Both the position numbers and the translations under genes were made by a program. DNA of 64,000 bases from contig NZ_CP121648.1 in assembly GCF_029714205.1 (NCBI RefSeq), positions 558,001 through 622,000 of the forward strand. Direction: 5' to 3'. The DNA is from Methylobacterium sp. CB376 (GTDB lineage: Bacteria > Pseudomonadota > Alphaproteobacteria > Rhizobiales > Beijerinckiaceae). This document shows positions 12,806 through 49,852 of this stretch, in pieces. The notes under the pieces are model-generated. The model did not search any database. It saw only the letters and a list, made by a program, of their open reading frames with translations, and was not told the DNA's origin. Each line of letters starts with the position of its first letter. Positions within the stretch are counted from its first letter, which is position 1.

Positions 12806-12998
12806 TCTTCGCCGCCGAACCGGTGACCCCTTCGGCACCGGCCGGTCCCGGCCGGCGGGATGATGTCATCCGACATCCGGTTGATGGCTTCGCCATCTCC
12901 GATTTCGGCCATGCGGATGTCGGCTTCGCTCGGGCGCCGCGCTCGGGCGCCGCGCGGGCTTGTGATCCGGGACCCGCTTTGATCAAGCGGATCCCGGA
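12806..12998. repeat. Dispersed repeats of families B and A, with a palindrome
   Basis: From 12806 the minus strand matches the element at 30030-30066 (family B, GGTGCCGAAGGGGTCACCGG). At 12867-12960 is a family A unit in inverted orientation, and 12965-13001 holds a stem-loop of the GATCCGGGATCCGCTT type. The repeats abut the gene stubs that follow. Confidence 0.75.
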
Positions 12999-18320: not shown

Positions 18321-18502
18321 GTCCCCGCCCCTCGGCGCCCCTCGGCCGCCCGCCGGCTCGGCCCTTCACGCCTGCCGGGAGCTTGGCCCTTCATGCCTGC
18401 CGGGGGCTTGCGCGGGGTCAAGGAAGCGGGAAGCGGCGACGCTTATGCACAGGCAATGCCGCCGCACGGGCCGCGCCGAAGCGGCGCGGTGCCGCGTTGC
18501 AA

Positions 18503-18519
18503 TTTAGAATCATTCTAAT
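18503..18519. promoter_or_regulatory. Irr/ICE-like palindrome before cytochrome b561
   Basis: TTAGAATCATTCTAA at 18504-18518 is a perfect 7-1-7 inverted repeat and stands out in GC-rich DNA. It matches the form of the iron control element bound by Irr in Rhizobiales (TTTAGAA, short spacer, TTCTAAA; from memory). It is 31 bases upstream of the chosen start of the cytochrome gene, where it could overlap the promoter. Confidence 0.6.
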
Positions 18520-18549
18520 ATGTGAGGCGCGAACGCGATGGAGGTGGCG

Positions 18550-19098
18550 ATGGCCCGTTCCGCGACCGCGGCGCCCGAGGAGGCGCTGGTCCGCTACGAC
18601 ACGACGACGATCGTCCTGCACTGGCTGACCGCGCTGCTGGTGGGGCTGCTCTGGATCCTCGGCCAGACCAACGATTGGTGGCCGCGCGGCCCGCTGCGGG
18701 GCGGGCTGTGGTCGCTGCACGTCCTGCTCGGCTTCGCCCTGATGGCGACGCTGGCGACCCGGGTGGTCTGGCGGATCGGCCCGGGCCGGGCACTGCCCTC
18801 GGCGGAGGACGGGCCCCTGCGCCTCCTCGCCCGCGCGACCCATTCGGGGCTCTACCTGCTCCTGATCGCGGTGGTGGGGCTCGGCCTCGCCGACGCGCTG
18901 GTGCGCGGCTTCGTCCTGTTCGGCGCGATCCCGCTGCCGCAGGTCGGCGACCAGGCCCTGCGCCGCCCGATCAACGCGCTGCACGAATGGGCGGCCAACG
19001 CGGTGATGGCCGTGGCGGGACTGCACGCCGCCGCCGGGCTCTTCCACCACTACGTGCGCCAGGACGGGGTGCTGGGGCGGATGTGGCGGGCCTCGTGA
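18550..19098 (+). CDS. Cytochrome b561-type diheme membrane protein
   Basis: A 182-residue inner-membrane protein with four predicted transmembrane helices and the histidines expected for two b-type hemes: His in IVLHWLTALL, His in LWSLHVLLGF, His in RATHSGLYL and His in VAGLHAAAGLFHH. Such proteins pass electrons from quinol to periplasmic acceptors or to oxygen species. I prefer ATG 18550 over 18538 because GGAGG is five bases ahead of it. An Irr/ICE-like palindrome in front suggests control by iron or heme status. It is inserted between addA and addB on the other strand. Confidence 0.9.
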   Translation: MARSATAAPEEALVRYDTTTIVLHWLTALLVGLLWILGQTNDWWPRGPLRGGLWSLHVLLGFALMATLATRVVWRIGPGRALPSAEDGPLRLLARATHSGLYLLLIAVVGLGLADALVRGFVLFGAIPLPQVGDQALRRPINALHEWAANAVMAVAGLHAAAGLFHHYVRQDGVLGRMWRAS

Positions 19099-42176: not shown

Positions 42177-42268
42177 ATCGCTCCCGACCCGGTGTTTTCC
42201 CAGCACGACGCCCCGCTGACGCAAGGTTCACCCCGGGCCTGTCACGAAGCCGACACGGACGGAAGTAG

Positions 42269-42283
42269 TAGAACGTTCCAATT
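42269..42283. promoter_or_regulatory. GAACGTTC operator before exbB-exbD-tonB
   Basis: TAGAACGTTCCAATT holds a palindromic GAACGTTC core centred at 42274.5, 76 bases upstream of the exbB start. The same core with the same flanking TA and AATT occurs twice around the TonB receptor start, and a variant precedes the LacI-family gene. A central CG in an AT-flanked palindrome is typical of LacI-family operators. Confidence 0.6.
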
Positions 42284-42350
42284 GCGCTCGGCGGGCTCTG
42301 CGGCGCCGATCGTCGGCGTGCCGGGACCCCGCCCATCCCGGGATTGCACG

Positions 42351-42986
42351 ATGGACGCCGCAACGTTCTCACCGTCGGCCATGTTCTTCCAGGCAGGATT
42401 GGCCGGCCGGGCCGTGATCCTGACCCTCGTCGCCTCCTCGGCGTGGTGCTGGGTCCTGATCCTCGAGAGCCTCTACACCACCGCCAAGCTTCGGCGATCG
42501 CTGAGGGGTCTGGAGCGCGGCGAGGTTCCGGACCTCCTGCGGCCGGTGGTCGAGGCGGGGAGGCAGGCGGCGGCCCTCGTGCTCCCCGAGGAGAGCCCCG
42601 GCGAGGTGCAGCGGCGGACCGCCGCCGCGATGGAGCGGGCGGCCGCCCGCGCGATGACCGCCACGGAGGGCGGCTACTCGCACCTCGCCGTGATCGCGTC
42701 CGTGGCCCCGTTCGTGGGGCTGCTCGGCACGGTCTGGGGCATCATGAACAGCTTCATCAGCATCGCCGACGCCAAGGACACCAGCCTCGCCGTGGTGGCG
42801 CCCGGCATCGCCGAGGCCCTGGCGACCACCGCGATCGGCCTGATCGCCGCCATCCCGGCCGCCGTGGCCCACGGCCGCCTGGGCGCCGTGCTCGGCCGGC
42901 TGTCGCAGCATATGGGCCATCTCATCGAGGCGCTCGCCGTCGACCTCGTCGTCAAGGCCCGCGCGGTCGACCGGGGAGCCCGCTGA
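42351..42986 (+). CDS. exbB: ExbB/TolQ-type proton channel protein
   Basis: ExbB forms the pentameric channel that, with ExbD, uses proton flow to energise TonB. The 211-residue product has a first transmembrane helix (AVILTLVASSAWCWVLILE), a cytoplasmic domain and two further helices with the family motif PFVGLLGTVWGIMNSF and IAEALATTAIGLIAAIPA. The stop overlaps the exbD start (TGATG). ATG 42351 is chosen; the open frame extends upstream without a site. Together with exbD, tonB and the downstream LacI gene it forms the energy part of the uptake module. Confidence 0.93.
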   Translation: MDAATFSPSAMFFQAGLAGRAVILTLVASSAWCWVLILESLYTTAKLRRSLRGLERGEVPDLLRPVVEAGRQAAALVLPEESPGEVQRRTAAAMERAAARAMTATEGGYSHLAVIASVAPFVGLLGTVWGIMNSFISIADAKDTSLAVVAPGIAEALATTAIGLIAAIPAAVAHGRLGAVLGRLSQHMGHLIEALAVDLVVKARAVDRGAR

Positions 42987-43450
42987 TGGCCTTCTCCAGC
43001 CGCGGGAGCGGCCCGTACGGGTCCTCCGCCGACATCAACGTCACGCCGCTCATCGACGTGATGCTGGTCCTCCTGATCGTCTTCATGGTGACGGCACCGC
43101 TGCTGACGACCGGGATGAAGGTGAACCTGCCGCAATCCCGGGCCGCCAAGCCCATCGACCCGAAGGAGCCGGCGGTCGTCGCCGTTGCCAAGGACGGCAG
43201 GGTCTTCATCGGCACCGACGAGATCGCGCTCGACCGGCTCGTCCCGGCGGTGACGGCGGCGATCGAGAACGACCTGTCGCGGGTCGTTCACCTGAGGGGC
43301 GACAAGGACGCCTCCTACGGCGACGTGGTCAAGGTCATGGACCTGCTCGCATCGAGCGGGATCACGCACCTCGCCGTGGTCGCCAACCGCAGGAGCGCCG
43401 GCGAGGCGGGACACCCCGCGCCCCGGCGGGCGACGGGATCCGAGCCATGA
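42986..43450 (+). CDS. exbD: ExbD/TolR-type biopolymer transport protein
   Basis: A 154-residue protein with one transmembrane helix, ADINVTPLIDVMLVLLIVFM, that contains the essential aspartate, and a periplasmic C-terminal domain ending in THLAVVANR. It partners ExbB in the proton-driven motor. Start and stop both overlap neighbouring genes (TGATG with exbB, ATGA with tonB), so the three are translationally coupled. Confidence 0.93.
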   Translation: MAFSSRGSGPYGSSADINVTPLIDVMLVLLIVFMVTAPLLTTGMKVNLPQSRAAKPIDPKEPAVVAVAKDGRVFIGTDEIALDRLVPAVTAAIENDLSRVVHLRGDKDASYGDVVKVMDLLASSGITHLAVVANRRSAGEAGHPAPRRATGSEP

Positions 43451-44265
43451 CCGCGGCGGGACTCGCCGAGGCGCGGGACCTCGCGCCGCCGCGGTCGAAG
43501 GGGGACCATCCCCGCGCGCTGGCGCGCGCAGCGGCCTTCGCCGTCGCGCTCGCGGCCCATGGGCTGCTCCTGTGGGTGCCGCGGCCGTCCCCGGCGCCGC
43601 CCTCCGCCGTCGAGACCCTCGAGATCAGCGTGGTGGCGCAGGGCGACGCCACGACCGACGAGGCCGAGGAGACGCGCAGCGCGGCCGAGATGCCGCCGGA
43701 GCCCGAACCCGCGCCGCCGGAGCCGCCGCTCCCGCCCCCGCCGGCGGAGGCCGAACCGCCGCCGGTCCGGGAGAGCCCGGCCGCCCCGGCGATCCCGGTC
43801 CGCCCGCCGGAGCCGCCCGCGCCGCCGCGACCTGCCCCGCCCAAGCCGCCCAAGCCGCGCCCGCCGGAACGGCCGCGGGCGGAGACGAGGCCGCCGCGCA
43901 AGCCCGACTCCAAGCCCAGCCAGGCGAGCATGGCGCAGCACCGGGCGCATGCGGGGGCCGACCAGGGCGCGAATATCCGGTCCGGCCAGGCGGTCGCGGC
44001 CTACGGCGCGATCCTGAAGGCGGAGATCAACCGGCACAAATCCTATCCGGCCGCGGCCCGCGACAGGCAGGCATCCGGCGTGGTGATGGTCAGCTTCGCG
44101 ATCGGGCCGTCGGGCCGCATCGCGAGCGCGGCGATCGGCCGATCCTCGGGCGATCCGGCCCTGGACGCGGCCGCGCTGCAGGCGGTGCGCGCCGCCAGCC
44201 CGCCCCCGCCGCCCGGAGGGCATTTCAGCGGCCGCATCGCGATCGAGTACGCGCTGCGGCGATGA
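43447..44265 (+). CDS. tonB: TonB-family energy transducer
   Basis: A 272-residue protein that spans the periplasm to contact outer-membrane receptors. An N-terminal anchor (AAAFAVALAAHGLLLWV, with the His usually needed) is followed by a long Pro/Glu then Pro/Arg/Lys-rich spacer (about residues 80-160) and a C-terminal TonB domain, SYPAAARDRQASGVVMVSF to the end. A TonB dedicated to one system is common when the exbBD genes are next to it. The LacI-family gene is convergent, 18 bases downstream. Confidence 0.93.
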   Translation: MTAAGLAEARDLAPPRSKGDHPRALARAAAFAVALAAHGLLLWVPRPSPAPPSAVETLEISVVAQGDATTDEAEETRSAAEMPPEPEPAPPEPPLPPPPAEAEPPPVRESPAAPAIPVRPPEPPAPPRPAPPKPPKPRPPERPRAETRPPRKPDSKPSQASMAQHRAHAGADQGANIRSGQAVAAYGAILKAEINRHKSYPAAARDRQASGVVMVSFAIGPSGRIASAAIGRSSGDPALDAAALQAVRAASPPPPPGGHFSGRIAIEYALRR

Positions 44266-44283
44266 CGCGGCGGTCCCGCCGCG

Positions 44284-45348
44284 TCATCGCCGCGCCTCCG
44301 CGAAGGGCCGCGTGGAGTCGCGCACCACGAGGCGCCCCGGGTACAGCTTCTGCGCCGGATCGTGCGGCGCCCGCACGCCCTCGATCATCTCGATCAGGGT
44401 CGTGACCGCGAACTCCACCATCTCCAGCGTCGGAACCTCGATGGAGGTCAGGCGCGGCACCGTGTAGGCGCACTGGACCAGGTTGTCGAAGCCGACGACG
44501 CTGATCTCGTCGGGAACCCGGACGCCCTGCTCGTGCAGCGCCTTCAGCACGCCGAAGGCGACCCGGTCGTTGGCGGCCACGATCGCGTCGGGCCGCGGCG
44601 CACGCCTGAGCAGGCGCAAGGTCGTCCGGTATCCGCTCTCCGAACTCCAATCGCAGGGGACCACGAGGTCGTCGCGCGGGCGCAGGCCCGCCGCCGCCAG
44701 GGCCTCCCGGTATCCGCTGAGCCGATCGGCCACGGCGGGCAGGTGCCGGCCGTCGCGCTCGCCCTTGTAGAAGCAGATCGCCTTGCAGCCGGTCCGGACG
44801 AGGTAGCCGACGATCTGGCGAACCGCGTCGCGCTCCGCCCGCATCGCGAAGCTCGCCTCCGGCACGTCGAGGCCGAACACGAAGAACGGGACGGACTTGG
44901 CCCGCAGCGAGGCGATCAGCGGGTCGTCGCGGCGGTCGGCGAGCACGACCATGCCGTCGACCCGGGCCTCGCTCACGAGGCTCGTGATCCTGCTCAGGCC
45001 GTCCGGCTCTCCGGCGTTCCAGCGGCGATGGACGAGCATGTAGCCGTGGCGGTCCGTGACGTGGGCGAAGGTCTGCAGCACGATGCCCTGGTAGGTCTCC
45101 TGCATCATGCCCGTCACGTCGTCGTAGGGCTGGGCGCCGACCGAGAACACGCAGGCGATGCTGCGGCTCGGCTTCTTGCGCAGCGAGCGGGCCGCGAGGC
45201 TGGGGACGAAGTCCAGCTCCCGCATCGTCGCGCCCACCATCTCCCGCGTGGAGCGCGCCACCTTCTCCGGGTGATTCAGCACCAGCGACACCGTCTGAAA
45301 GCTCACGCCGGCGCGGCGTGCGACATCCTTGATCGTCACGCGAGCCAT
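44284..45348 (-). CDS. LacI-family transcriptional regulator
   Basis: A 354-residue regulator with the LacI helix-turn-helix (VTIKDVARRAGVSFQTVSLVL at residues 4-24), a hinge SLAARSLRKKPSRSIACVFS, and a sugar-binding-protein fold with DAIVAANDRVAFGVLKAL and VGFDN. These normally bind sugars or nucleosides. I use ATG 45348 after GAGG; a GTG two codons earlier is possible. It lies between tonB and the receptor operon, and LacI-type palindromes stand before exbB, before its own gene and around the receptor start, so it is the likely controller of all three. Confidence 0.93.
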   Translation of the reverse strand: MARVTIKDVARRAGVSFQTVSLVLNHPEKVARSTREMVGATMRELDFVPSLAARSLRKKPSRSIACVFSVGAQPYDDVTGMMQETYQGIVLQTFAHVTDRHGYMLVHRRWNAGEPDGLSRITSLVSEARVDGMVVLADRRDDPLIASLRAKSVPFFVFGLDVPEASFAMRAERDAVRQIVGYLVRTGCKAICFYKGERDGRHLPAVADRLSGYREALAAAGLRPRDDLVVPCDWSSESGYRTTLRLLRRAPRPDAIVAANDRVAFGVLKALHEQGVRVPDEISVVGFDNLVQCAYTVPRLTSIEVPTLEMVEFAVTTLIEMIEGVRAPHDPAQKLYPGRLVVRDSTRPFAEARR

Positions 45349-45439
45349 CTTCACCTCAGAGAACGTGATGGGATCGAAATTCCGGTCTCCAGAGGCCCGC
45401 CAGCCGGTCGGCTCTCCTGCGATCGATGACGGTCATTGC

Positions 45440-45449
45440 GAAACGTTCA
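45440..45449. promoter_or_regulatory. Operator-like site before the LacI-family gene
   Basis: GAAACGTTCA contains AAACGTTC, one base from the GAACGTTC core found before exbB and the TonB receptor. Its centre is 96 bases upstream of the regulator start, consistent with autoregulation. A half-site, AGAACGT, lies at 45359-45365. Confidence 0.4.
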
Positions 45450-45929
45450 TGCTCATTCAGATCGGCCCTGATGTCGAAGATCCGGCTTCGCACGCGGGAG
45501 CGCTTCTTCCCAGGTACAGGGGTCGCCAGGTACAGGGGTCGAGTATTGGCGCCGGGTGGAGGACCCGGTCCTCGATCACCCTGGGTTCATGATCCCCGGA
45601 CATCGTCTTACCGATCGAACCTGAAGCGATCCGGCGCCGTTGTCCAGGCTCGGCCGAAGGATTCGTCGGGCGCGGGGCTGCCGGCCTCGACGGGGAGCCG
45701 GAGGTGATCTCGGGCACCGGACGCGGCCGGGCGAGGCACGGCGCCCGACCGCCGCGTTCAGGCCGGGGCGGGCGTTGCGCCGCCTCCATCCCGCCCGCGC
45801 TCCCGACGCGCGGGCCGAAAGCCGAGCGGCAGCCGAGGGCGAAGCGCCTCGTCCCGGGACACGATCCACCCTCAGGCCGCCGGATCACGGCGCCCCCGAG
45901 CGGACCCGCCTCGGCAGGCCGGCGCCTCG

Positions 45930-46265
45930 CATGATGCGAAAACAAGAGATCGAGCAGAATCGCCCCATGGCATTCTGCCTAGAGCATTTTCCGACGAAGT
46001 GGATGCCGGTCCGTCGAAGACAATGAGGAAAAATCAAAGGCCCGTCGCATGTCCCGCTGAAGTGGATGCCGGCTCGGCGCAGGTGATGCCATAGGTGCCG
46101 GATCCGCCGCAGGTTTGCGTGGCAGAACCGGCGACCGCGCTCGTGATCCGGGATCCGCTTGATCGAAGCGGATCCCGGATCCCAAGCCCGCGCGGCGCCT
46201 GAGCGAAGCCGACATCCGCATTCCCGAAATGGGAGATGGCGAAGCCATCAACCGGATGGCGTATG
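45930..46265. repeat. Dispersed repeats of families B and A
   Basis: 45930-46030 repeats the family B segment of 30080-30190, including AGAGCATTTTCCGACGAAG and GGATGCCGGTCCGTCG. 46141-46180 has the GATCCGGGATCCGCTT hairpin and 46187-46265 a family A unit. The last unit ends about ten bases short of the phosphoesterase stop codon. Confidence 0.8.
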
Positions 46266-46273
46266 AAACCCGT

Positions 46274-47116
46274 TCAGGGCCGACGGCGCGCGAGACGAAG
46301 CCGCGGGCGGAACTGGAACATGTCGTCGAAGAAGCAGAAGGCCGGCGGCCCCAGTTCGAGGACCGGCAGCGCGGCGGCGAGCGCCGCGATCGCCTCGCGC
46401 CGGACGACCCGGTAGCGGGCCGCCTCGGCCTCGGTCAGGGGGGCGATCGCGTAGGTCTGCGTGGTGTGGAAGCGGTAGGTGTCGTGACCCGGCTGACGCA
46501 GCTTCAGGAGATCGGACAGGCGGTCGCGCAGGCCCCGCAGCTTCGCCTCCTCGGCGGCATCGACCGGGATCAGCCGGATCGCCTCGCCCGGCCGCACGTC
46601 GCGGTTGGAGGCGCCCTCGGCCACCTTCATCCGGAAGCGCGGCGCGCAGCCGAGGTCGAAGGTCTCCAGCTTCTCCAGGAAGACCCGGTCGCACTGGCCG
46701 AGCGGCGCGTCGAGGGGCAGGTCCGCCGGCCAGAAGCCGGGCTTCCGGACGAGATCGACCACGCCCTCGAAGACCGTCATGTGATAGCTCGACGGGGGCG
46801 TGAAGACGAACTTGTCCGCGTAGGGTTCCGCCGCGATGGTCGCGCGATACGCCATCAGGGCGGCGGCCGGACCGTCGATGTCGATGGGGCACACGATGGT
46901 GTTGCCGGGACAGGGCAGCAGCTTGCCCCGCGACGTGAACTTGACCCCGATCCAGGGGAAGGGCCGGGACGCCGCCGCCGGATCGGAACTCGCCAGGGCG
47001 GCGCTCACCGGCCGTCCCGGCCCGCTGCCCCACGCGGCGGCGCCGGAGAGTTGCAGGATGCGGCGGCGCGAGATGATCCGGCTCCCGCCGTCGCACCGCC
47101 TTTCGCGCCTCGTCAT
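46274..47116 (-). CDS. Tat-exported putative 2H phosphoesterase (DUF1868-like)
   Basis: A 280-residue protein with a twin-arginine signal (SRRRILQLSGAAAWG) that sends it folded to the periplasm. Two H-x-T motifs, His112-Met-Thr114 in YHMTVF and His217-Thr-Thr219 in RFHTTQTY, are spaced as in the 2H phosphoesterase superfamily, which opens cyclic phosphates or cleaves 2'-5' linkages; the overall pattern is like DUF1868. The start is three bases after the stop of the TonB receptor, so the two form an operon. A role in processing the imported ligand, for example a cyclic phosphate, is inference. Function is not known. Confidence 0.7.
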   Translation of the reverse strand: MTRRERRCDGGSRIISRRRILQLSGAAAWGSGPGRPVSAALASSDPAAASRPFPWIGVKFTSRGKLLPCPGNTIVCPIDIDGPAAALMAYRATIAAEPYADKFVFTPPSSYHMTVFEGVVDLVRKPGFWPADLPLDAPLGQCDRVFLEKLETFDLGCAPRFRMKVAEGASNRDVRPGEAIRLIPVDAAEEAKLRGLRDRLSDLLKLRQPGHDTYRFHTTQTYAIAPLTEAEAARYRVVRREAIAALAAALPVLELGPPAFCFFDDMFQFRPRLRLARRRP

Positions 47117-47119
47117 GGC

Positions 47120-49516
47120 TCAGAAATCCAAGGTCAGGCTGGCGGTGACCGCGAAGGGCGAGCCGAGATAGAAGCTCGGCGCGTTCGCCGCGCTGAGCGC
47201 GAAGCCGGTCGTGTTGCCAGGGTTGATGTAGATGTACTTCTTGTTGAAGAGATTCGTGACGTTCAGCTTGAATAGCCCGTCCTGCGCGCCCGGGATCGCC
47301 TCGACCAGGGATGTGCCCTTCAGCTTGTAGCCGAGACCGAGATCGACCGTGGCGTAGCCCGGCAGGGAGATGTCGTTGGTGAGCGTGGCGTAGACCTCGC
47401 TGGTGTACTTGGCGCGGGCGAAGGCGAAGAAGGGCCCGTTCTCGTACATCACGGTCGACGCCGTCAGGGACAAGGGGGAGTTGAAGTAGAACTTGCCCTT
47501 GGTGCGCAGCGCCGGCGATTTCGGGTCGGGAACGATGTTGCCGTCGATCGTGTCGTGGTTGATGGCCTGGGAGAGCAGCACGCTCCAGCCCTCGTACGGC
47601 TTGGTCGCCACCTCGACCTCGGCGCCGACCGCGGTGGTGCTGCCGATGTTGGTGTACTTGCTCGAGAGGGAGCCGTCGCCGTTGGCGGTCTGGGCGATCC
47701 GGTCGCTGTACTTGATCAGGAAGCCGGTCGCGTTGACGTCCAGGAAGTCGCCCTTCAGGCGGTAGCCCAGATCGAAGCTCAGGGCGCGCTCCGCCTTGAT
47801 GGTCGGCACCTGGATCAGGTTGGTGGCGCCGTTGACCAAGCGGCCATCCGCGAAATTGGGCGGGACCCTGGCATTCATCGACGCGTTCGCGAAGACCTGG
47901 TTCGCCGCGTCGAGATCGTAGCGCATCCCCACCGCCGGCAGCAGGAAGGCGTAGCTTCTGTTCACCGTGTAATCCAGGTACGAATCCGTTCTGGTACTCG
48001 TGCCGGACGGAAGATTATGGAAGCTGCGCGAGTAGAACTTCTGCCGCAGCGAGAGATCGACGTGCATGGCGTCATCGAGCAGCGATATGCTGTCGGAAAT
48101 CGCCACCGTCGTATTGTAATAATCCGTCTTCCAGTTGCGGTTCGTGACGATATTTCCGTCGAAGCCGCGCAGAAGGTTCGACTTGAACCAGATATCAGGC
48201 AAAGTGTTATTCGTCTGATCGATCTGCTGGAACGGATTCATTTGATGCTGATAGGTGTACTCGGTCCAGAGGCTGCCCGTGACGGTGTGGTTGTCGAGCC
48301 GCCCGGTGAGGCTGACGACGTTGCCGACCCGGTCGAAGTCGCTCTGGCTCATCTGGCCGAGCAGGGCGTTGGTGCCCCGGGTGCCGTAGGCCGAGAAGGC
48401 GCCGATCGGGCTCGACAGGAGCTTGCCGGCGTAGCCGGCCTCCTTGAGCACGATCTCGCTCGTGCTCCCGGATTCCTGGTGCAGGAAGTAGGGCGTCAGG
48501 CGCAGCTCGACGCCGTCCGAGAGCGGGAAGCGCCCGTCGATCGACGCGTAGGCGTGGCGGCCGGGCTCCCAGGAATAGCCGGAATAGCCGGTATTGGCCG
48601 GCGTGGGGGTGACCGCCAGACCGATCGCCGAGAAGACCGCGCCCGGACCGGTGAGGATCGTCGGCGGCGTCCGCAGCCAGCCATTGCGATAGCCGAAGGC
48701 TTGGTACTGATCCTTCGTCACGGTCCGGACGAAGGTATTGGCGAACTCGTTGTAGAACGACGTGAAGCTGATGCTGCCGCCATTGTCGAGCTTGACGTCG
48801 AACCGGCTGTCGACGTGATGCCGCTCCGCCTCTCCGGGGCCTGCGAAGTAGTCCGACCGCGCGTGCGAGTAGGACACGTAGCCCTTCAGCACCTCGTCGA
48901 AGAGGGGGCCGGTATTGGCGCGCAGGAACGTCTTGTTGAGGAAGTAGGAGCCGAACGATTGCGAGAAGGTGACCGCCGGCGCGTCGGCCGGTCGGCACTG
49001 CTCCATGCTGACCTGGCCGCCGATGGCGCCGTGCTGCGCGACCGTGCCGGCGCTCGTCCCCTGCGTGACGTCGACGGCGCAGAGATTCTCGCTGTCCGTG
49101 TAGATCTGGGGCAGGACCGAGAAAGTGCCCGGATCGTTGAGCGGCACGCCGTTGAGGGAGAGGCCGATCTGCGTGCTGTCGAAGCCGCGGATCGAGTATC
49201 CCCCGCCGAACAGACCCGAGGGATCGCGCGAATAGGAGTTCACGCCGGCGATTCCGCCGATCCGCTGCGCCAGATTCGCGGTGCCCGGCTGCCGCGCGAT
49301 GTCCTCCCGGCGCAGGGTGGTGGCCGCCGCAGTACCGTTCTGCTCGGCCAGGAGCGGCGCCCCGCGGTCGCCCGCCCCCTCGCCGCGCGCCGCCGCCGCC
49401 TCGACCGAGACCGTGCCGAGGTCGGTTGCCCCCTGTGCCAGGGCGGCGTGCGGGAGGGCGGCCGCGGCCAGACACGCGATCAGCCCTTTATAGAACGTTC
49501 TAATTTTCACCGACAT
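47120..49516 (-). CDS. TonB-dependent outer-membrane receptor
   Basis: A 798-residue receptor: signal peptide ending in HAALAQG, a plug domain with LAQRIGGIAGVNSYSRDP and GYSIRGFDSTQIGLSLNGVPLNDPG, and a long beta-barrel ending LTASLTLDF with terminal Phe as needed for barrel assembly. Two plug cysteines (LCAVDV, EQCRPAD) are unusual. The closing TonB-box II region NLFNKKYIYINPG is typical of siderophore- and substrate-type receptors; the ligand cannot be read off. It has a periplasmic 2H-like phosphoesterase downstream and two GAACGTTC operators, one at 49491-49502 inside codons 5-9 and one about 105 bases upstream. Confidence 0.93.
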   Translation of the reverse strand: MSVKIRTFYKGLIACLAAAALPHAALAQGATDLGTVSVEAAAARGEGAGDRGAPLLAEQNGTAAATTLRREDIARQPGTANLAQRIGGIAGVNSYSRDPSGLFGGGYSIRGFDSTQIGLSLNGVPLNDPGTFSVLPQIYTDSENLCAVDVTQGTSAGTVAQHGAIGGQVSMEQCRPADAPAVTFSQSFGSYFLNKTFLRANTGPLFDEVLKGYVSYSHARSDYFAGPGEAERHHVDSRFDVKLDNGGSISFTSFYNEFANTFVRTVTKDQYQAFGYRNGWLRTPPTILTGPGAVFSAIGLAVTPTPANTGYSGYSWEPGRHAYASIDGRFPLSDGVELRLTPYFLHQESGSTSEIVLKEAGYAGKLLSSPIGAFSAYGTRGTNALLGQMSQSDFDRVGNVVSLTGRLDNHTVTGSLWTEYTYQHQMNPFQQIDQTNNTLPDIWFKSNLLRGFDGNIVTNRNWKTDYYNTTVAISDSISLLDDAMHVDLSLRQKFYSRSFHNLPSGTSTRTDSYLDYTVNRSYAFLLPAVGMRYDLDAANQVFANASMNARVPPNFADGRLVNGATNLIQVPTIKAERALSFDLGYRLKGDFLDVNATGFLIKYSDRIAQTANGDGSLSSKYTNIGSTTAVGAEVEVATKPYEGWSVLLSQAINHDTIDGNIVPDPKSPALRTKGKFYFNSPLSLTASTVMYENGPFFAFARAKYTSEVYATLTNDISLPGYATVDLGLGYKLKGTSLVEAIPGAQDGLFKLNVTNLFNKKYIYINPGNTTGFALSAANAPSFYLGSPFAVTASLTLDF
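49491..49505. promoter_or_regulatory. GAACGTTC operator overlapping the receptor start
   Basis: TAGAACGTTCTAATT contains the perfect palindrome TAGAACGTTCTA centred at 49496.5. On the minus strand it covers codons 5-9 of the receptor gene, so a bound repressor would block elongation or initiation. Its centre is 127 bases, about 12 helical turns, from the site at 49618. Confidence 0.65.
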
Positions 49517-49852
49517 GCCCCCACAGCACGCGTCGCGCCGCGGCCCGCCCCCTCGTGACGCGCCGGCTCACGGACCAGATTCGGCGCCGCGCCGCGGCGG
49601 GCGGGCCCGATTTCTCCTGGAACGTTCTAATTCTTACCCAGAGGAAGCTGCAGATTTGTGACACCCGCGCGGGACGCGGCCGGACCGGCCGGCTGGCCGA
49701 GGCGACCTCATCCGGGATCCCGAATGCCGGCCGCGCCGTTCTAGGGGCTGTGAGGGACCGGAGGCGGGTGTCGTGCTGGCCCGGGCCGAGCGCCCGGCAG
49801 GAGCCGAGGGCAGCCCACCCGATGGGCGCGGGCCGCAGCGAGGGAGGCCAAG
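49517..49852. other. Shared gap between the TonB receptor and kup
   Basis: 336 bases between divergent genes with no coding signal. It should hold the receptor promoter and the kup promoter. The AT-richer part is 49612-49660 and includes the second GAACGTTC site. Confidence 0.5.
49618..49632. promoter_or_regulatory. Second GAACGTTC operator upstream of the receptor
   Basis: TGGAACGTTCTAATT has the core GAACGTTC at 49620-49627, centred at 49623.5. It is about 107 bases upstream of the receptor start and 230 bases upstream of kup. The spacing to the first site suits looping by a tetrameric LacI-type repressor. Confidence 0.6.

Follow-up and report, generated by a model that had tools for sequence, protein, structure and literature searches.

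The window analysed here is a stretch of 64,000 nucleotides from Methylobacterium sp. CB376 (contig NZ_CP121648.1, positions 558,001 to 622,000). It contains genes for a TonB-dependent receptor, a DUF1868 protein of the 2H phosphoesterase type (designated as PE2H), a LacI-family regulator, and a TonB-ExbB-ExbD energiser. From the comparison of sequences, it is well supported that these genes constitute one module under one shared operator. The shared site itself is real and conserved. The gene order is receptor-PE2H-lacI converging on exbB-exbD-tonB, which corresponds to two convergent transcription units. The module may represent a substrate-induced, LacI-repressed TonB route for organic phosphodiesters, perhaps gated by phosphate starvation; we give this reading an even chance. 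The genes and sites are as follows.

42265..42284 (core 42271-42278), unstranded: operator before exbB, centre at -76 from the start codon, supported by the matrix and by relatives
42351..42986, plus strand: exbB-like proton channel gene, PF01618 (MotA_ExbB)
42986..43450, plus strand: exbD-like gene, PF02472
43447..44265, plus strand: tonB-like gene, PF03544 (TonB_C)
44284..45354, minus strand: LacI-family regulator gene converging on tonB, PF00356 and PF13377 (Peripla_BP_3) above cut-off
45440..45449, unstranded: GAAACGTTCA, a fourth site proposed in the earlier sequence-only reading, unsupported as an operator
46274..47116, minus strand: PE2H, DUF1868/2H phosphoesterase gene, Pfam 2H-phosphodiest, with a twin-arginine leader and both histidine motifs
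47120..49516, minus strand: TonB-dependent receptor gene, plug PF07715 and beta-barrel PF00593
49487..49506 (core 49493-49500), unstranded: operator inside the receptor gene, centre at +20, covering the K-I-R-T-F codons
49614..49633 (core 49620-49627), unstranded: upstream receptor operator, centre at -107, supported by the matrix and by relatives

The core GAACGTTC was found three times in the window against 0.41 expected, and none of 100 shuffles reached three. Each core has AATT one base further on along the plus strand. The sequence-only reading had placed this palindrome and its AATT flank at 42269, 49491, and 49618, and the cores were indeed recovered there, at 42271, 49493, and 49620. 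The palindrome (A)ATTAGAACGTTCTAAT(T) is present at both outer promoter regions, and a further copy is located within the first codons of the receptor gene. Among 18 sites from six genomes the consensus is near AATTAGAACGTTCTAATT; the palindrome is even, the CG centre and all eight central bases are invariant (18/18), and 12 sites are upstream of start codons. The pattern TRGAACGTTCYA was derived from these 18 sites and therefore fits them by construction. It occurs exactly three times in the whole 7.69-Mb genome, every time in the module. Across 111 genomes of the genus, 36 matches lie outside modules by our own tally. The pattern TAGAACGTTCNAATT with up to two mismatches is seen at seven places of the Methylobacterium sp. 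CB376 genome, against four for a reversed-pattern control; at zero or one mismatch, four places remain, the three module sites and one with a broken core. A matrix built from 15 non-redundant sites gave 35.8, 28.5, 25.2, 14.6, and 4.9 as the five best scores in the window.

Screening of the 111 genomes revealed the receptor (E <= 1e-60) in six genomes and PE2H (E <= 1e-5) in the same six. All six modules have the same gene order, with LacI, ExbB, ExbD, and TonB, and the same three operators. The conservation in related Methylobacterium that the sequence-only reading proposed to examine was thus seen in every genome with a module. The receptor in the window is 99% identical to that of the near relative Methylobacterium sp. 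WSM2598, which is apparently G050. The window and G050 are near copies, so that the six modules represent five lineages. In the four distant relatives, identity to the proteins in the window is 66-69% for the receptor and 64-65% for PE2H; three of them (G041, G082, and G090) are closely related among themselves, and the fourth is G067. In the compared stretches of 12-20 kb, the lysR, kup, araC, arsB, and hyp151 neighbours from the window were found beside the module of G050 only. This distribution of flanking genes suggests that the module moves as a unit.

Beyond exbB, genes for an Opp-type ABC protein and a TIM-barrel protein are present in G041, G082, and G090, and an Opp-type permease match is found 3 kb past exbB in G067. 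A type I phosphodiesterase gene beside exbB is intact only in G090 (L017), while remnants are seen in G041 and G082 (L015 and L016). None of these genes was counted as part of the module. The gap between PE2H and lacI measures about 0.9 kb in the window, while the four distant relatives have only about 0.06-0.12 kb there. An exact dispersed repeat of 21 bases, GGCGAAGCCATCAACCGGATG, occurs at window positions 12874, 46238, 53143, and 53227, and one copy is inside the enlarged gap.

The operator centres are found at -97 to -107 and +17 to +20 relative to the receptor start, and at -69 to -76 relative to exbB, across the lineages. The coding site is AAAATTAGAACGTTC in all five lineages, with 15 identical bases. 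Its Arg codon is AGA in 5/5 lineages, a codon rare elsewhere in the same genes (1/30 to 3/37 Arg codons). The retention of AGA together with the 15 identical bases points to selection on the DNA, beyond that on the signal peptide. The spacing of the two receptor sites had been considered suited to looping. The 127 bp between their centres is present in the window, but the distances in the five lineages are 127, 120, 120, 120, and 117 bp, with no common helical phase whether 10.5, 11.0, or 11.3 bp is taken as one turn. Looping was rejected as evidence because this spacing keeps no fixed helical phase. The one-base variant at 45440, taken earlier as a further site, was also rejected; it lies inside the enlarged gap between PE2H and lacI, falls outside the top five matrix scores of the window, and had no visible counterpart in relatives. 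By inspection, a candidate promoter TTGACA-N17-TCTAAT can be read across the upstream receptor operator in G041, G082, and G090, but in neither the window nor G067, and it was not adopted. The promoter positions referred to below are putative.

The earlier assignments of ExbB, ExbD, TonB, LacI, the 2H phosphoesterase, and the receptor agree with Pfam. The ExbB, ExbD, and TonB C-terminal domains are encoded side by side, and the regulator has both the helix-turn-helix and the periplasmic-binding-protein-like domain of the LacI family. No module protein reached an NCBIfam equivalog cut-off; the energiser proteins were below those for named ExbB, ExbD, TolQ, and TolR, and the receptor was far under those for siderophore, haem, copper, and PqqU receptors. 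Pfam analysis of the module proteins revealed no inner-membrane transporter, glycoside hydrolase, or sugar kinase. The genome has four TonB_C loci, the module tonB and three others. The sequence-only reading had described a self-contained regulon. The single module and its shared operator stand, but "self-contained" is too strong because the module lacks an inner-membrane transporter gene and three further TonB_C loci lie elsewhere in the genome. Two of these loci, C1:1262949 and C1:1315089, show equal scores and equal open-frame lengths and are 52 kb apart; they are possibly a duplication.

PE2H retains two H-x-T/S motifs, and the residues H112 and H217 are invariant across 23 aligned sequences. 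Its N-terminus shows a twin-arginine pattern, as read from the pattern and not from a signal predictor. PE2H matches Atu0111 from Agrobacterium (PDB 2fsq, E 5.5e-36), and its AlphaFold model has a mean pLDDT of 84.5, being confident from about residue 51 with a dip near residues 170-180. PE2H is a putative hydrolase of a phosphodiester or cyclic phosphate. DUF1868 family members occur in bacteria and fungi. The relatives known only as proteins, at 61-71% identity, include those of Methylobacterium sp. JK268 and a Microvirga metagenome-assembled genome, and some further entries of this protein list are probably genomes already counted (E-066 with G090, and J-077 with G082). In the literature searched, neither a mention of DUF1868 nor a paper combining LacI, ExbB, a receptor, and a phosphoesterase was found.

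The module LacI is the likeliest candidate for the reader of the operator, because it is the only regulator gene seen across all six modules and because the even CG-centred palindrome is typical of the LacI family. In the available text of PMC4052901, 1251 of 1303 LacI-family regulators have even palindromes and 1173 of 1303 have a central CG, and most sites are 30-140 bp before start codons. These points favour the link between LacI and operator drawn by the sequence-only reading, while the copies of LacI outside modules count against it. LacI relatives (E <= 1e-80) comprise 21 copies in 20 of the 111 genomes, and 15 copies are outside modules. The six module copies form one side of a tree branch (94/91). 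Outside the Methylobacterium sp. CB376 genome, no such LacI (E <= 1e-60) was found in 318 family genomes from 43 genera, with up to six candidates scored per genome.

Several observations weigh against the module LacI as the reader. The sequence SFQTVSLVLNHP is identical in all 21 copies, and the whole DNA-binding domain is nearly identical, including the 15 non-module copies. Nevertheless, the stretches around these 15 copies (13.5-20 kb each) have a best matrix score of 8.2, versus 19.9-37.5 at module sites; in two of them (L068 and L074) a GAACGTTC core is present, but its flanks match poorly. Of the 14 genomes that carry a LacI of this kind but lack the module, only two contain TRGAACGTTCYA, in one copy each. 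No GAACGTTC was found before lacI in the relatives, despite autoregulation in 72% of LacI regulators, and one operator per receptor gene is within codons, versus less than 1% of LacI sites in coding regions (both figures from the available text of PMC4052901). Scans for AACGTT, with the matrix, and for CG-centred palindromes, as well as an alignment of divergent promoters (8 of 15 loci), revealed no convincing operator for the non-module copies. Two-mismatch matches were seen in 3/14 genomes with only non-module LacI versus 6/91 others (Fisher P 0.10), and those in the LacI-only genomes are close to genes that are apparently unrelated by eye.

A promoter-like element, CTTTATCT ... TAGACT, was recognized by inspection before lacI in the four distant relatives (L015-L018) and in most non-module copies (L062-L076), without an operator; it was not seen before lacI in the window. 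Eight or nine of the 15 non-module loci (L062-L076) are, by eye, near dehydratase, aldose epimerase, FucP-like, and SMP-30-like genes.

These observations raise the alternative that the sites are read by a regulator from elsewhere in the genome, such as one of the TetR type, while the module LacI controls something else. Such a regulator would fit the 14 genomes that lack the module and have a LacI with a near-identical DNA-binding domain but no good site close to it, as well as the absence of GAACGTTC before lacI in relatives. On the other side, LacI is the sole regulator gene seen in 6/6 modules, the size and CG centre of the site match LacI-family motifs as far as PMC4052901 describes them, and the sites of the Methylobacterium sp. 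CB376 genome are private to the module, which indicates a dedicated local regulator. An outside regulator is considered unlikely, although it is the best of the alternatives.

Pho-box-like elements at both module promoters are suggestive of a second control, while each of them is weak singly. The consensus used was CTGTCAT-N4-CTGTCAY, as given in the available text of PMC3131613.

42239..42256, plus strand: Pho-box-like direct repeat CTGTCAC-GAAG-CCGACAC upstream of exbB, 11/14 consensus positions
49647..49664, minus strand: Pho-box-like direct repeat GTGTCAC-AAAT-CTGCAGC upstream of the receptor operator, 9/14 consensus positions

Among the 127,966 window positions on both strands, only one other place reaches the level of the exbB element, whose offset from the operator is 32 in the window and 33 in the relatives. 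At the receptor, the offset of 37 is the best-scoring one between 26 and 45 in 5/5 lineages. The fixed-offset scores (of 14) for the window, G041, G082, G067, and G090 are 9, 8, 9, 7, and 8 at the receptor, and 11, 9, 9, 6, and 9 at exbB, with the window one base off at exbB. A spacer of 4 scores 79, whereas every other length between 0 and 8 scores 65-75. The following results weigh against these elements. The best score was rarely equalled in shuffles only at exbB of the window (0.003), and the other nine promoters gave 0.27-0.95. The element at the fixed place is the best or tied best in only 6/10 promoters, and at exbB of G067 the conserved offset is not the best-scoring one. Among 420 permuted words, 15 equal the Pho word, the real one included; of the remaining 14 words, only four or five seem to hit the same place as register shifts or near-copies, some others catch a possible third repeat at exbB, and the rest are unrelated. 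At all eight annotated loci of the distant receptor relatives described below and in G803, no Pho-like element passes 0.05, the lowest value being 0.085 in Methylosinus.

A plain sugar is improbable as the ligand, in view of the Pho-like promoter elements, similar repeats at operons combining ABC genes with DUF1868, and receptor relatives beside PI-PLC, cyclic-nucleotide phosphodiesterase, or PLD-like genes. The ligand may belong to the organic phosphodiesters. In the genus, PE2H accompanies the receptor in 6/6 genomes. One of 16 DUF1868 stretches searched with the receptor from the window, from G803 (L159; an alphaproteobacterium of another family), encodes a 24%-identical receptor. The gene after this receptor specifies a DUF1868 protein whose leader is of the exported type, and the gene on the divergent side specifies a PI-PLC-C1 protein (E 8e-121). 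Receptors with 24-28% identity were found in 13 plasmid records, of which 11 were inspected (8 annotated and 3 unannotated). Two of the eight annotated loci have ExbB and ExbD genes next to the receptor together with a phosphodiesterase gene, which is of the CpdB type in Methylosinus and PLD-like in Chimaeribacter. The others include two with a kinase and PnuC, two with LysR and a dipeptidase, one with MFS, and one with nothing adjacent and an alkaline-phosphatase-family gene 2.5 kb off.

The gene order ROK-ABC-DUF1868, in which DUF1868 ends an ABC operon, is common to two Rhizobium plasmids (L206 and L213) and G716 (L148). Tandem 11-bp repeats of the type TTGTCAT-N4-ATGTCAT are located between the ROK and ABC genes, scoring 11 and 12 of 14 in Rhizobium and 12 in G716; the Rhizobium scores were reached by 0/400 shuffles. 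These three loci are orthologous and therefore count as one observation. A match of at least 12 is present in 3/19 DUF1868 stretches, whereas 60 permuted words averaged 0.27 such stretches and never exceeded 2. In one of the three (L153), the match is 3.7 kb away and the locus is not of the ROK-ABC-DUF1868 type. Two counts weigh against the proposed route: only 2/8 annotated receptor loci have an adjacent phosphodiesterase, and 15/19 DUF1868 stretches are not of the ABC type and have no match of at least 12.

The version of the sequence-only reading, in which a LacI-controlled module takes up a sugar, with looping between the receptor sites and autoregulation at 45440, is less probable again than an outside regulator. 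It has a parallel in the sux locus of Xanthomonas, where a LacI-family repressor is beside the sucrose TonB receptor (available text of PMC1790865), and sugars are the effectors of most characterised LacI regulators (available text of PMC4052901). However, genes for a glycoside hydrolase, a sugar kinase, and an inner-membrane transporter are all missing from the module, PE2H is always beside the receptor in the genus, the spacing of 127, 120, or 117 bp spans more than one phase, and 45440 is unsupported.

A receptor with TonB-ExbBD is typical of iron-regulated genes. Irr or another Fur-family iron regulator might read the palindrome, the imported compound being an iron or haem complex. The module half-sites TTAGAA/TTCTAA are the same as those in three perfect TTAGAA-N3-TTCTAA boxes of the Methylobacterium sp. 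CB376 genome, which has none at spacing 2 or 4; this similarity weighs against LacI as the reader. We take TTAGAA-N3-TTCTAA to be the Irr box, and one of the boxes precedes, by eye, a bacterioferritin-like gene, as Irr would predict; another precedes a cytochrome b561-like gene. The available texts of PMC7540006 and PMC3413700 give the name and the targets of the Irr box without a full consensus. In the genus, 67/111 genomes match the half-sites at spacing 2-4, and nearly all matches listed have spacing 3. Among these listed matches, the only spacing-2 sequence outside modules is TTAGAAGCTTCTAA, with six copies spread over three genomes; a single match has spacing 4, TTAGAACGTTCTAA is found only at a module (G082), and all the remaining matches have spacing 3. 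An Irr reader is the least probable of the alternatives and was judged unlikely, since every module site has spacing 2 instead of the 3 of the Irr/ICE box and an unvarying CG centre (18/18), and an exported phosphoesterase fits iron uptake poorly. An ICE-box-like sequence, ATTTAGAATCATTCTAATAT, is seen elsewhere in the window at 18502-18521, just upstream of a cytochrome b561-like gene by eye (18538-19098).

For the phosphodiester route, the following mechanism is proposed. The LacI-type protein of the module would bind the shared sites and repress both units, and PhoB would activate both promoters under phosphate starvation; with both controls, expression would need low phosphate and the substrate together. 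An inducer derived from the imported compound would free LacI, a small initial uptake of the substrate being sufficient. The receptor, powered by its own ExbBD-TonB, would import an organic phosphodiester or cyclic phosphate, which would then be opened in the periplasm by the 2H enzyme exported through Tat, and the inner-membrane step would be encoded elsewhere than in the module. A more specific version, which is tentative and rather doubtful, is that DUF1868 is a phosphate-starvation exported 2H phosphodiesterase acting on phosphodiesters from plants, for instance the inositol cyclic phosphate that PI-PLC makes, or on sugar phosphodiesters, and that the module is its TonB importer gated by PhoB and LacI. 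To our knowledge, such a DUF1868/TonB route is unlike the Ugp, phosphonate, and phosphatase routes. If true, a function would be assigned to the uncharacterised enzyme family DUF1868, organic phosphodiesters would join the cargo of TonB receptors in Proteobacteria, and Methylobacterium would have a small two-signal promoter. The non-module LacI copies, with a near-identical DNA-binding domain and no matching operators nearby, would offer a clean case of retention or loss of targets by paralogues.

The Methylosinus sp. C49 plasmid (L202: ExbD, hypothetical protein, receptor, ExbB, CpdB-type) resembles the module in its related receptor (28%), its own energiser genes, and a phosphodiesterase, whereas the phosphodiesterase family is unrelated, the gene order is different, and no LacI gene is listed in the stretch. 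Like local LacI-family regulons as described in the available text of PMC4052901, the module has an even palindrome with a central CG; unlike them, it has an in-codon receptor site, and an autoregulatory site is unseen in relatives. Judged by analogy, the nearest analogues are the sux locus of Xanthomonas and the phosphate utilisation systems (Pus) of Flavobacterium. Pus systems have TonB-type outer-membrane transporters beside phosphodiesterases and phosphomonoesterases and are induced by phosphate depletion, but they are SusCD-like complexes of Bacteroidetes with other enzymes, and the available text of PMC8115612 does not mention a LacI operator module for them. The sux CUT locus (SuxR, SuxC, SuxA, and SuxB) likewise has a LacI-family regulator adjoining a TonB-dependent receptor and is substrate-induced (available text of PMC1790865). 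It includes an inner-membrane transporter and an amylosucrase, with ExbBD-TonB not among the sux genes named there, whereas the module has a 2H phosphoesterase and a dedicated ExbB-ExbD-TonB.

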